Source: Bifidobacterium aesculapii
Lineage (GTDB): Bacteria > Actinomycetota > Actinomycetes > Actinomycetales > Bifidobacteriaceae
Reading direction: 5' to 3'
Length of the DNA: 64,000 nt
Assembly (NCBI RefSeq): GCF_001417815.1
Contig: NZ_BCFK01000067.1
Span: 1 to 64,000 of the forward strand
The position numbers were made by a program, and so were the translations under genes. Numbering within the stretch: the stretch's first letter is position 1; each line of letters starts with the position of its first letter. Positions 2,797 through 64,000 of the stretch are shown piece after piece. A model generated the notes under the pieces. It was not told the DNA's origin. It searched no databases and saw nothing but the letters and a program-made list of their open reading frames with translations.

Positions 2797-2859
2797 TAGG
2801 GTCATCGCCGCCGGCGCCCCGCCCAACGGCGAAAGGCGTCCGGTCGCCTCATCCGCTGC

Positions 2860-2907
2860 GCGCGATTTTGGTGCGCAAATCATCCGATTTGCGCACCAAA
2901 ATCGCGC
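2860..2907. repeat. Dispersed hairpin repeat (GCGCGATTTTGGTGCGC family), copy 1
   Basis: Two 21-bp arms (2860-2880 and 2887-2907) are perfect reverse complements around a 6-nt loop; the arm core is GCGCGATTTTGGTGCGC. The element lies between the rpiA terminator and the bS22 terminator, so it is not needed for ending either transcript. Related hairpins occur at 8082-8135, 16596-16649 and 61861-61913. Confidence 0.85.
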
Positions 2908-2941
2908 AGAGAAGGGACGGACGCTACAGATAAGATAAGCG

Positions 2942-16558: not shown

Positions 16559-16595
16559 CCGTTCCCCCACGAACGCAACCGTTTCCGCAATCGAC

Positions 16596-16649
16596 TCCGC
16601 GCGATTTTGGTGCGCTAAACGCACTTCCAGCGCACCAAAATCGCGCGGA
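16596..16649. repeat. Dispersed hairpin repeat, copy 3
   Basis: Perfect 21-bp arms: TCCGCGCGATTTTGGTGCGC plus T (16596-16616) against the reverse complement at 16629-16649, with a 12-nt loop. It lies 37 bp past the lipoprotein stop and 68 bp from the tRNA-Ser 3' end, that is, between convergent genes. It shares its whole core with copy 1 at 2860-2907. Confidence 0.88.
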
Positions 16650-60583: not shown

Positions 60584-61483
60584 TCAGTCCCGCGCGGCGA
60601 TCGGCTTGCGGCTCATCGTGCGGTAATCCCAGTAGCCGTCTTCGGGGAACCGTTCGCCGCGAATCTCCTCGAGAAGCTCGTTGAGGCGGATGAACATGCG
60701 CCATTTGAGCGTTTCGACGGCTTCCACCGGCGGCTCGTCGCCCCACGAATCCATGCCTTCGAGCAGGTCCGCATAGTCGAGCTGATGGTCGTAGCACATG
60801 ACGACGTTCTTGCGTGGCCACGGCCACCAGTGGTTGATGGATGCGGCGCCCCAGGTGGCGGCGCAGAACAGCGGCACCTGCTTGCCGAGACGGCGGGAGG
60901 ATTCGAGCGCGATGTAGGCGGCACCCTCCTTGATGCTCATCACCCATTTCTTCGGATCGCGGGTCACGGTGCCTTCCGGCCAGACGGTGAGCGGACGGCC
61001 GGAGACGAGGATGTCGATGGAGGTCTCCTCGATCTGCTTGGCCTTGCCGGAATGGCGCTGGACCGGCTGCATGCCGACCAGCTGGAACCACTTGCCGATG
61101 AGCGGCCACTTCGCCATCTCGGCCTTGGCCATGTAACGCGGGCGACGGCCCATGTGGAACAGGCTGGCCATCGGCACGAACACGTCGAACATCGTCACAT
61201 GCGAGGCGGCGGTGATGAACGGGCCGCTCTCCGGCACGTTCTCCAGACCCCACGCGCGCGTTTTGCAGCTCGCATGGAAGACCACGTCGACGCCTTTGAG
61301 CAGGCGCGCGGTGCCTTTCGGGTTCTGTGCGTCAATCTCGCGCTGGTTGACGTGCCGGTCCGGTCCGGTCGGCAAGTCGCGCAGCGGGTCGACGAGGCGA
61401 TGCCGCTTCGCGAGTTCGGCGACGCGCTCGTCGCTCAGCGGTGCGACCGCGGATCGCGGCGACGGTTTTCCTTTGGATGCCAT
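60584..61483 (-). CDS. plsC: 1-acyl-sn-glycerol-3-phosphate acyltransferase
   Basis: The enzyme acylates lysophosphatidic acid to phosphatidic acid at the membrane. The 299-residue protein carries the HX4D motif as SHVTMFD (H95, D100), the substrate-binding MAKAEMAKWPLIGKWFQ and WPEGTVTRDP. It lacks the usual N-terminal membrane helix and has a ~70-residue polar leader instead. The plsC-gpsA-ddl order is common in actinobacteria and links phospholipid and wall precursor synthesis. No good ribosome binding site was found; CACAAT lies 7 nt before ATG 61483. Acyltransferases of other lipids cannot be excluded. Confidence 0.92.
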   Translation of the reverse strand: MASKGKPSPRSAVAPLSDERVAELAKRHRLVDPLRDLPTGPDRHVNQREIDAQNPKGTARLLKGVDVVFHASCKTRAWGLENVPESGPFITAASHVTMFDVFVPMASLFHMGRRPRYMAKAEMAKWPLIGKWFQLVGMQPVQRHSGKAKQIEETSIDILVSGRPLTVWPEGTVTRDPKKWVMSIKEGAAYIALESSRRLGKQVPLFCAATWGAASINHWWPWPRKNVVMCYDHQLDYADLLEGMDSWGDEPPVEAVETLKWRMFIRLNELLEEIRGERFPEDGYWDYRTMSRKPIAARD

Positions 61484-61593
61484 GCGCCCTATTGTGCCGC
61501 CAGCCTTGTACCGCACCGTAGTCACACCGCCGGCATCCATCGCGCCATCGCGTCTTCACACCGTCACTGCGCCATACAAGCCCGCGGAAATCG

Positions 61594-61773
61594 TGTGTGG
61601 CACAGTTGTGCTCCACACAAGCGCGCACATGGATAAGTGGGGGGTTGTGTGGAGCATTATCGCTCCACACAAATGTATACGGTTACGCATATGGGTTTGT
61701 GTGGAGCGATATCGCTCCACACTTCGCGTATCTCTCCCATGAATCTCATCATGTGGAGCACGACTGCTCCACA
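61594..61773. repeat. Four palindromes at exact 52-bp spacing (TGTGTGGAGC/GCTCCACACA)
   Basis: Hairpins with arms TGTGTGGAGC and GCTCCACACA lie at 61594-61619, 61645-61672, 61699-61722 and 61752-61773. Their centres are 61606.5, 61658.5, 61710.5 and 61762.5, each 52 bp apart. The third is a perfect 24-bp palindrome. The inner 4-8 bases vary between copies and the intervening ~26-bp segments are unrelated. The array lies in the 546-bp gap between plsC and a TetR gene; nothing else is seen there besides the hairpin and operator listed below. Confidence 0.88.
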
Positions 61774-61860
61774 ACAACTCTCGCACCCCTGATATGGCGC
61801 ACCATTCGACGCATACCTCCCGACGACCACCATTCTCGGCGACCCCATCAATCAATCAAT

Positions 61861-61913
61861 CGGCGCGTTTCTCGTGCGGAAACACGCGTGGCTTCCGCAC
61901 GAGAATCGCGCCG
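61861..61913. repeat. Dispersed hairpin repeat, copy 4 (divergent)
   Basis: CGGCGCGTTTCTCGTGCGGAA (61861-61881) pairs with TTCCGCACGAGAATCGCGCCG (61893-61913) with one mismatch. It has the same arm length and GCGCG-n-T-n-GTGCG layout as copies at 2860, 8082 and 16596, with substitutions matched on both arms. Confidence 0.7.
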
Positions 61914-61928
61914 AGACGACCCATATCT

Positions 61929-61954
61929 ACATACCGACCGACGGTATGTATACT
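61929..61954 (+). promoter_or_regulatory. TetR operator over the regulator/exporter promoter
   Basis: ACATACCG and CGGTATGT form a perfect inverted repeat with a 5-bp centre (61929-61949). It fills the spacer before a TATACT box (61949-61954); TCTACA at 61926-61931 is a weak -35. Typical layout for an autorepressed TetR gene. Confidence 0.8.
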
Positions 61955-62029
61955 GGGTGGAGCAGTATGCAGCAATCGGACGGAATCCCCCGGGAAATCC
62001 GCGGGGCGCACCGCGAAGGGAGACACGAC

Positions 62030-62665
62030 ATGGCACGCAACAGGCATCCGGAACGCACCCACGCACGCATCCTCGACGTCGCGAAGCGGCTGTTCCTTAC
62101 CAAGGGGTACGACGGCACCACGATGCAGGACATCGTCGACAGCCTCGGCGACCTGTCGAAGGGCGCGGTCTACTACCACTTCAAGTCGAAGGAGGCGATC
62201 CTCGACGCACTCGGCGAGGAGGACCAATCCCGCCACGACCCCATGGCGATCGACGACACGGGACTCACCGGATTGGACAAACTACGTGAGGCATTCCGTC
62301 GTTCCGCGGCCGACAACGAACATATGCGGCTGATGAATGCGGCCTATCCCGCGATGCATGATCCGAAGCTCCTGGCCGCCAATCTCAAGGTCTGGCGCAC
62401 CCAGGTCGCCGACATGTTCGATGCGATGATCCGCGAAGGCGTCGCCGACGGCTCCATCGACACCGCATACCCGCGCGAGGCGGCGGAACTGCTCGCCCTG
62501 TTGACCAACTACTGGCTTGCCCCCACGTTCTATCCGGCTACGGCCGACGAACTGCACCACCGCGTCGAGGCGCTGGCCACGGTGTGCACCGGGCTGGGCG
62601 TGCCAATCCTCGACAAGGATCTCATCGAAACCGTCTCCCGTGGATACGCAGCCCTGATCGACTGA
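62030..62665 (+). CDS. TetR/AcrR-family transcriptional regulator
   Basis: The 211-residue protein has the TetR helix-turn-helix at ~10-55 (ARILDVAKRLFLTKGYDGTT, MQDIVDSLGDLSKGAVYYHF) and a helical ligand-binding C-terminal domain. GAAGGGAGA ~6 nt upstream marks ATG 62030. The palindromic operator in its promoter and an exporter gene 49 bp downstream on the same strand indicate an autorepressed efflux operon induced by the exported compound. Confidence 0.93.
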   Translation: MARNRHPERTHARILDVAKRLFLTKGYDGTTMQDIVDSLGDLSKGAVYYHFKSKEAILDALGEEDQSRHDPMAIDDTGLTGLDKLREAFRRSAADNEHMRLMNAAYPAMHDPKLLAANLKVWRTQVADMFDAMIREGVADGSIDTAYPREAAELLALLTNYWLAPTFYPATADELHHRVEALATVCTGLGVPILDKDLIETVSRGYAALID

Positions 62666-62714: not shown

Positions 62715-64000
62715 ATGAATCCGAACCCGAACAATCCGTCTCCGGACATCCACCCCCATCCCCGCTCCCCGCTTCTGTCGCGCGATTTCATTCTGCTCGT
62801 CGCGGGGCAGGGCATCTCGCTGTTCGGCAACCTGATGCTGCGGTTCGCGATGTCGATGTGGGTGCTTGACGAGACCGGCTCCGCCACGGTCTTCGCCTCG
62901 ATCCTCGCGGTGTCGATCGTCCCGACGATTCTGCTGTCGCCGTTCGGCGGCGCGCTCGCCGACCGAGTGAACCGCCGCACCATCATGGTGGCGCTCGACG
63001 CGCTCTCCGGCACGCTGGTGCTCGCGTGCGCGCTCGCCTTCGTCGCGATCGGTTTCAACATGGTCGCGATCGCGGCGATGCAGGTGCTGCTCGCCGTGCT
63101 CGGCGCGTTCGAGACGCCGACCGTGCAGGCCGCACTCCCCCAGATGGTCCGCAAGTACGGTCAGGGCGTGATGCGGCAGGCGATGGCGGTCGTCAACCAG
63201 ACGCAGCAGCTCGGTTCCCTGCTGCCGAGTTTCCTCGGCGGCGTCCTGTACGCGATGTTCGGCATCCGTCTGATGATGGCGGTCACCGTCGCATGTTTCG
63301 CCACCGCCGCCCTGCTCGAATGCTTCATCCGACTCGGCGCGCCCGACCGCGGCGGCGAGGAGCCGCCCACGCCGCTCGAGGATTTGAAGGCCGGCATCCA
63401 CTTCCTCACCCATGATCGCCCGAACGTGTTCCGGCTGGCGTTGTGCGCGGCCGGATTGAACTTCATCGTCATCGGGTATTCCGCCGTCGGATTCCCGTAC
63501 ACCATCCGCACCGTGCTCGGATTCGACGCGACCGTCTACGGCGTGGCCGACGGGCTGGTGGGCGTCTCCGGCGTGGCGGGCGCGTTCATCGTCGGCCTGT
63601 TCGCAGCCAAACTCACGATGCGGCACATGCCGATGGCGCTGGCCGTGTTCGTGCTGCTGCTCGTGCCGCAGGGCGTTGCGTTCCTGCTGCCGATCGGCGC
63701 ATGGGCGAAGCTCACTGTGCTGGTGGCGTTCACCTGCGGCACGATGGTCGCCAGCTGCTTCGCGAACCTCATCACGATTCCGACGATCCAATTGAGCACG
63801 CCGGAGACGATGACCGGCAAGGTCATGGCCATGTTCTCCGCGCTGTGCATGTGCGCCCAGCCGCTCGGTCAGATGGTGTACGGCTGGGCCTACGACCGCT
63901 TCCCCGTCGCCATGGTGCTGTTCGCCAGCGCCGCCGCGATGGCCGCGCTCACCGTGGCGATGGTGCCGCTCACCCGCAGATTCGAGGATTGGCGGCTCAT
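62715..64000 (+). CDS. MFS transporter (partial, runs off the window)
   Basis: The 428 visible residues begin with a ~20-residue Asn/Pro/His-rich start, then LLSRDFILLVAGQGISLFGNLM and twelve hydrophobic helices. The motif A-like GGALADRVNRRTIMVALDALSG is clear, and ETPTVQAALPQMV is typical of the MFS_3/enterobactin-exporter-like (EntS/MdfA-type) group. The reading frame has no stop before the window ends. GGAG lies ~14 nt before the ATG. Given the adjacent TetR gene, export of a toxic compound or macrolide-type drug is likely but unproven. Confidence 0.9.
   Translation, partial: MNPNPNNPSPDIHPHPRSPLLSRDFILLVAGQGISLFGNLMLRFAMSMWVLDETGSATVFASILAVSIVPTILLSPFGGALADRVNRRTIMVALDALSGTLVLACALAFVAIGFNMVAIAAMQVLLAVLGAFETPTVQAALPQMVRKYGQGVMRQAMAVVNQTQQLGSLLPSFLGGVLYAMFGIRLMMAVTVACFATAALLECFIRLGAPDRGGEEPPTPLEDLKAGIHFLTHDRPNVFRLALCAAGLNFIVIGYSAVGFPYTIRTVLGFDATVYGVADGLVGVSGVAGAFIVGLFAAKLTMRHMPMALAVFVLLLVPQGVAFLLPIGAWAKLTVLVAFTCGTMVASCFANLITIPTIQLSTPETMTGKVMAMFSALCMCAQPLGQMVYGWAYDRFPVAMVLFASAAAMAALTVAMVPLTRRFEDWRL

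Follow-up and report, generated by a model that had tools for sequence, protein, structure and literature searches.

The window analysed here is a stretch of 64,000 nucleotides from the Bifidobacterium aesculapii genome (2.69 Mb; G000). Towards its end, four palindromes form an array in the intergenic region between two divergently oriented genes, coding for an acyltransferase and a TetR-family regulator. The features of this region are as follows.

60584–61483, minus strand: acyltransferase, PlsC-like (PF01553; Pfam scan), neighbour of the array
61502–61927 (approximate extent), no strand: intergenic DNA including the array, with no BLAST match in G093, G050 and G097
61596–61617, no strand: palindrome 1, TGTGGCACAGTTGTGCTCCACA, left arm with two mismatches
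61648–61669, no strand: palindrome 2, TGTGGAGCATTATCGCTCCACA
61700–61721, no strand: palindrome 3, TGTGGAGCGATATCGCTCCACA, a perfect dyad
61752–61773, no strand: palindrome 4, TGTGGAGCACGACTGCTCCACA
61928–61950, no strand: separate palindrome TACATACCG-N5-CGGTATGTA outside the array, probable TetR operator
62030–62665, plus strand: TetR-family regulator (PF00440; Pfam scan), neighbour of the array
62715–64000, plus strand: transporter, MFS-type judged from sequence alone, neighbour, extending past the window end

The four palindromes measure 22–26 bp, and both the start-to-start and the centre-to-centre distances are 52, 52 and 52 bp. With strict 10-base arms and a gap of 0–20 bases, one match was obtained in the window against a mean of 0.00 in 100 shuffles; the exact 52-bp centre spacing given in a preliminary description of this DNA was confirmed, and the array is far above chance. 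That description had also taken the same arms to recur in all four copies. The arms do recur, but their identity was overstated, as both full arms (TGTGTGGAGC and GCTCCACACA) are present in copy 2 only. Copy 1 carries the left arm TGTGTGGCAC with two changes, copy 3 has the right arm without its last base, and in copy 4 the outer bases are missing. The six inner bases vary among the four palindromes, in agreement with what had been described. No terminator-like site was found within 61594–61773 (an intrinsic terminator being a hairpin followed by a T-run). As RNA, the array region has a strong predicted fold (z −10), which is expected of any palindrome array.

We looked for the arms elsewhere in the genome and in relatives, a check that the preliminary description had proposed. 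The core TGTGGAGC-N(0–12)-GCTCCACA occurs 73 times in G000, compared to 0 in 24 other genomes of the genus and 1 in 14 genomes of the same order. With up to three arm mismatches allowed, the G000 stretches fetched around BLAST and pattern matches contain 149 sites in 30 intergenic arrays (two of these are single-site), so that the option of an unknown repeat system is borne out. The palindromes follow the pattern GTGTGGAGC-R-NNNN-Y-GCTCCACAC, with the consensus G-TGTGGAGC-R-NNNN-Y-GCTCCACA-C. Distances between adjacent centres are 39.5 (1), 40 (1), 41 (19), 42 (11), 51 (32), 52 (53), 52.5 (1) and 104 bp (1). Hence 115 of the 119 spacings fall at 41/42 or 51/52 bp, which with 10.3–10.4 bp per turn amounts to about 4 and 5 turns, although these spacings are not independent because arrays within G000 share ancestry (248-bp composite). 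In the larger arrays the spacings run symmetrically, approximately 41-52-51-51-52-41, and have a superperiod of 248 bp; compared to these, the array of the window is a short form, 52-52-52.

None of the 30 arrays overlaps a gene predicted by the codon-usage gene caller. Eleven of them lie towards contig ends, with one flanking gene called. The remaining 19 comprise 8 between convergent genes, 8 in tandem and 3 in divergent regions, the window array being among the last. In unselected stretches, the intergenic background (regions of 100 bp or longer) comprises 12 convergent, 60 tandem and 18 divergent cases; the arrays are therefore in excess between convergent genes (p=0.007), and divergent regions are not depleted (p=1.0). 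A scan of the proteins coded next to 15 of the 30 arrays covered 28 sequences. Pfam families were assigned to 25 of them, ranging over diverse transporters, enzymes, kinases and housekeeping proteins, and the other 3 had no match; no common function was observed among the 28. An Rfam search of 8 loci returned tRNAs only.

Other repeats were observed in the same genome. Direct repeats AACCTGYGC recur every 21 bp in stretch L063 (88–217 and 332–403; G000:C71) and in many other G000 places, and in at least four places a forward run is followed by a reverse run about 180–220 bp later. Triple matches number 27 forward and 29 reverse in G000 with none in the other 111 genomes of the genus, a count that does not test the 21-bp spacing, as the pattern fixed a spacing seen beforehand. 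Hairpins TCCTCCCTCAAC..GTTGAGGGAGGA adjoin the palindrome array in L038 (3911–4151), a pair of them at a distance of 52 bp, with related blocks in L047, L054, L058 and L063. Another palindromic repeat family of about 60 bp is found in the window (2853–2912 and 16595–16649) as well as at L044 6216, L057 2923 and L058 1303, the copies being about 80–96% identical.

The order of the acyltransferase and TetR genes is kept in the close relatives G093, G050 and G097, with TetR identities of 97, 95 and 73%, respectively. The intergenic region measures 243 bp in G093, 243 bp in G050 and 366 bp in G097 versus 546 bp here, and by BLAST the array is absent from this locus in all three synteny-keeping relatives. 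The palindrome at 61928–61950 overlaps a promoter-like site, is conserved in all four genomes and is probably the TetR operator. We rejected the array itself as a TetR operator, since G093, G050 and G097 lack it and keep this separate palindrome. The preliminary description had held that absence or irregular spacing in related strains, if without effect on the adjacent genes, would speak against it: absence from the locus was found in the three relatives, but spacing is regular genome-wide. In G093 and G050 the orthologous region of 61484–62029 (L116 and L117) has a nested inverted repeat, AGCGA.TCGTTCTCAATAA..TTATTGAGAACGATTCGCT, in place of the array.

We then compared the conservation of arms, loops and linkers within G000. 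At the loop edge, a left purine and a right pyrimidine are present in 146 of 146 sites. The combinations AT (33), GC (30), GT (53) and AC (30) show no covariation, and the presence of all four indicates that base pairing is not what is kept. Changes in the arms were one-sided in 110 cases, two-sided and matched in 15 (11 of these are one subtype, GAGAG..CTCTC) and two-sided and unmatched in 5. Across 119 homologous array pairs, mismatches amounted to 5.6% in the arms, 38.5% in the six-base core and 40.5% in the linkers, in alignments that were anchored by the arms and between arrays that share ancestry. In the same pairs, gaps took up 177 bases compared with 13,555 aligned bases of linker, with one gap base in an arm. 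The arms are thus 7-fold less diverged than the linkers, and indels are rare even at 57% linker difference; single-linkage clustering of the linkers chained and was uninformative. In other words, half-sites and spacing are kept, and loop and linker sequences are free. Conserved arms, drifting linkers, few indels and rare compensation argue for protein-binding sites in double-stranded DNA whose spacing is constrained, and not for RNA hairpins. The anti-terminator RNA that had been offered as one option is accordingly disfavoured, as arm changes are rarely compensated and the purine–pyrimidine pair at the loop edge does not covary.

Among 112 genomes of the genus, G000 included, two adjacent GTGGNGC..GCNCCAC palindromes were found in G000 (51) and G115 (4) only, that is, in one of the 111 others. 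G115 is B. stellenboschense DSM 23968, where one array has distances of 52, 52, 52 and 51 bp; for three of its four linkers, similarity to G000 linkers was no better than that of the best shuffles. A gene pair coding for an AAA_21 ATPase and RloB, resembling a defence gene pair, adjoins the only TGTGGAGC array found in this species (L096 7058–8979). Outside the genus, Pirellulales metagenome bins from a public genome collection (L066–L073 and L075–L085) hold 19 loci with GTGGnGC..GCnCCAC pairs. Their distances fill the allowed range of 40–53 bp, mostly 43–46, and 2 of the 19 are at 41/42/51/52 bp; these unrelated pairs are a contrast case of a similar palindrome without phasing. No GTGG-type palindrome array matched in phage records, plasmids or viral contigs, and an origin from any of these was set aside.

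Palindromes of unrelated sequence show similar geometry in close relatives. CTCTCGC..GCGAGAG forms arrays in G050, G093, G097 and G098. With periods of 45–76 bp allowed, the CTCTCGC pattern matched 118 times, in 6 of the 112 genomes; among the 103 matches listed, 99 are at 50–54 bp and 88 at 52–53 bp, the other four being in G041 (63 bp), G066 (two at 72 bp) and G050 (one at 72 bp). A third palindrome, CGTACGCTGA..TCAGCGTACG, was searched in 7 genomes with periods of 37–77 bp allowed and found at 39 places in G050, G093, G097 and G115, 38 at exactly 62 bp and one at 40 bp; these counts, like those for CTCTCGC, list both strands, so that places overlap. One-sided arm changes also outnumber matched ones under a loose site filter (301 versus 12 for CTCTCGC and 51 versus 3 for a CGTACG palindrome). 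The spacings of 21, 41.4, 51.6, 52.5 and 62 bp correspond to 2, 4, 5, 5 and 6 turns at 10.3–10.5 bp, and no overall p-value is attached to the families of the relatives because these were picked after their spacing had partly been seen. Less good fits to whole turns are a G093 family at 61 bp and B. animalis-type pairs at 53 and 60 bp.

The last of these concern an intergenic palindrome of B. animalis lactis, GGGACAG(N)15TGTCCC, which excerpts of PMC5217627 describe in 21 copies, mostly nearer the 3′ ends of genes. Tried as a prediction, this motif gave two loci (53 and 60 bp) in G044, by our guess perhaps B. animalis, and one in G040 (62 bp), with no clear support for phasing. The linkers between the GGGACA..TGTCCC palindromes of G044 (L240–L242) hold a second dyad, TTACGCA..TGCGTAA.

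Phasing was also assessed without reference to particular motifs. For G093, G050 and G097 together, a generic test on any similar palindromes within one intergenic region yielded R=10.4 at a period of 10.45 bp, where n=17 comprises 12 nominal families, several of which are one array or related and hence not independent. In a held-out test on G050, G097 and G098, with the statistic stated beforehand, R was 0.33 (n=6) with a best period of 9.35 bp, which gives no support at low power; the cross-species phasing claim therefore rests on the CTCTCGC and CGTACGCTGA..TCAGCGTACG pattern counts. Vote-based spectra peaked at 9.8 bp for the unselected G000 sample (G000u, 73 votes), at 10.2 for G093, 10.45 for G050, 10.65 for G097 and 10.2 bp for G115, and elsewhere for five other Bifidobacterium samples. 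No 10.45-bp signal was seen in samples of five other Bifidobacterium species (n=8), and the same-order controls gave one pair (n=1), too few for a judgement.

What occupies the orthologous places was determined from eight arrays of G000. Two were dropped, L059 because it gave no matches and L052 because its flanks lacked synteny, so that 6 arrays with 18 sites in relatives remained; the gap between flanks exceeds 2 kb in L243, L244, L245 and L246, and the flanks are rearranged in L248. The TGTGGAGC palindrome was found at none of the 18 sites, 5 of which have an array of another family, 1 a single site and 12 neither. Where G000 has an array between the aquaporin and ribosomal protein L9 genes (L057), CTCTCGC arrays are present in G093 (53, 53, 53 and 106.5 bp) and G097 (52 and 52 bp), and the site of L038 holds a CGTACG array in G050 (62 and 62 bp). 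After the glutamine amidotransferase gene (L043), G093 has a CTCTCGC array. After the aconitase gene (L053), G093 has GCGCAACAA..TTGTTGCGC palindromes about 60–61 bp apart (L127 18700–18960), and in G050 the interval between these anchors is only about 60 bp. The interval L044 5042–5393 measures about 13 bp in G050 and G093 versus about 350 bp with an array in G000. A both-flank search in stretches from relatives found nothing. The arrays of other families at orthologous sites suggest that motifs are replaced or that the same places between genes are occupied repeatedly, but the numbers are small.

Several known systems resemble this family in part. Cluster A mycobacteriophage stoperators are many dispersed copies of one protein-binding site, asymmetric and single, in a phage genome. 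The G000 sites, likewise many dispersed copies between genes of one putative binding site, are by contrast symmetric, chromosomal and in phased arrays, and they match nothing in phage records or viral contigs. CRISPR arrays also combine palindromic repeats with linkers of near-constant length, but the G000 linkers are homologous between arrays, the repeats vary in the core and the 28 proteins scanned beside 15 of the 30 arrays include no Cas protein, so we rejected this assignment. The motif excerpted from PMC5217627 is an intergenic Bifidobacterium palindrome too, but of different sequence, and its adjacent pairs are few and not clearly phased (G044 53 and 60 bp; G040 62 bp). Among the papers returned by library searches on Bifidobacterium repeats, titles and abstract openings held no report of this array system, and the search on helical phasing found no paper.

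A further likeness is with REP/BIME elements. The G000 family consists of dispersed, intergenic palindromes in the 20–40 bp class at high copy (>100), clustered in composite symmetric units with an excess between convergent genes. Excerpts of PMC3733652 and PMC2817692 describe REP families by tags and RAYTs, the former with a GTAG/CGTC tag at one stem end, and the latter with preserved palindromicity and with regularly spaced REPs in BIMEs, so that regular spacing alone is not new. Unlike these, the G000 arrays come without a RAYT or tag, their stems are rarely compensated and their spacing is in whole turns; the host is an actinobacterium, and neither 'Actinobacteria' nor 'Bifidobacterium' appears in the main texts of PMC3733652 and PMC2817692. 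Y1_Tnp (PF01797, RAYT) was found in 0 of 6 genomes (G000 and five relatives), with a positive E. coli control. The G000 site position table shows no GTAG or CGTC at a stem end, the site being symmetric, and stems are not maintained by complementary changes in the G000, CTCTCGC or CGTACG families.

We considered four other accounts of the data. A REP/BIME system proper, where a RAYT mobilises the palindromes as single-stranded hairpins and regular spacing merely reflects copied composite units, would explain the intergenic, high-copy, clustered arrangement with its symmetric 248-bp units, the convergent excess and the extra DNA with an array where relatives have almost none, and regular REP spacing has the precedent excerpted in PMC2817692. 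It is nevertheless weakened by the missing Y1_Tnp in all six genomes, by the rarity of compensated stem changes compared to the REPs of PMC2817692, by the missing tag known from PMC3733652 (both in excerpt) and by helical periods shared among unrelated palindrome families, and we regard it as unlikely. An equally doubtful account is that the spacing was inherited and not selected, a small number of founder arrays having been amplified in the manner of a satellite: homology can be recognised among many linkers and 248-bp tandem copies exist, but drift of the linkers far beyond the arms with so few indels, and independent palindrome families in relatives also at whole helical turns, argue against it.

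We see little chance for RNA elements, i.e., transcribed hairpin arrays serving termination, mRNA 3′-end stability or protein binding at the RNA level. The strong predicted fold and the convergent excess would fit such elements; however, compensatory changes are few, A-C is tolerated like G-C at the loop edge, the array has no terminator-like site, Rfam found tRNAs only in the 8 loci, and spacing by the turns of B-DNA would make no obvious sense for RNA. Least credible, to the point of being nearly dismissed, is that the array serves as an operator through which the TetR-exporter or acyltransferase genes are regulated locally. The array does sit in a divergent promoter region, but its palindrome recurs genome-wide in 30 arrays, which are enriched between convergent genes and have unrelated genes beside them in the 15 cases scanned, and the three relatives keep TetR, the transporter and the conserved separate promoter palindrome, yet lack the array. 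The tie to the TetR-exporter operon implied in the preliminary description is hence unsupported.

The reading that we prefer, with a probability of roughly 0.6, is that the window palindromes belong, as one array, to a dispersed intergenic family, almost confined to one species, of helically phased dyads, putative protein sites that are BIME-like or selfish and not a TetR operator. A symmetric (dimeric) protein would bind each palindrome as a double-stranded site. Whole-turn spacing would place bound dimers on one DNA face, making cooperative binding or a filament possible, and the dimers on that face may assemble in either way. From spacing and conservation we infer a cooperative array on double-stranded DNA; a cooperative DNA-binding protein array had been among the initial options and is the best supported of them by the 4/5-turn spacing, conserved arms and free loops and linkers. 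The arrays would spread and be lost as units. They are likely to be BIME-like elements at the 3′ ends of genes, with a function in supercoiling, insulation or the nucleoid, or else selfish repeats, and the excess between convergent genes makes a BIME-like topological or insulating role plausible.

Between species, the motif, and hence presumably the specificity of the binder, would be swapped with the geometric rule staying in place. Co-evolution of the binder with its site would be expected to produce such an exchange, and so would competition among selfish elements for shared niches. In our reading, the arrays constitute a new class akin to REP/BIME elements, phased by the helix and with a motif turning over between species. 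More tentatively, and at somewhat less than even odds, a bifidobacterial clade may possess intergenic elements that are defined by geometry instead of sequence, with dyad or direct sites at whole turns (21, 41/42, 51–53 and 62 bp) and species-specific motifs replaced at given sites between close relatives.

The best-known dispersed bacterial palindromes, the REPs, are explained by transposases of single-stranded hairpins (RAYTs). Here, in a large set of palindromes without a RAYT, it is the half-sites of double-stranded DNA that are conserved, the spacing is tied to the helical repeat, and close relatives have parallel families that differ in sequence. The motif-swapped arrays, some of them orthologous, form a natural series that makes the alternatives of a protein scaffold and selfish DNA testable in culturable gut commensals. 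If true, the geometry-defined class would imply a fast-evolving DNA-binding protein, or a selfish element, whose recognition sequence changes but whose one-face lattice is maintained.
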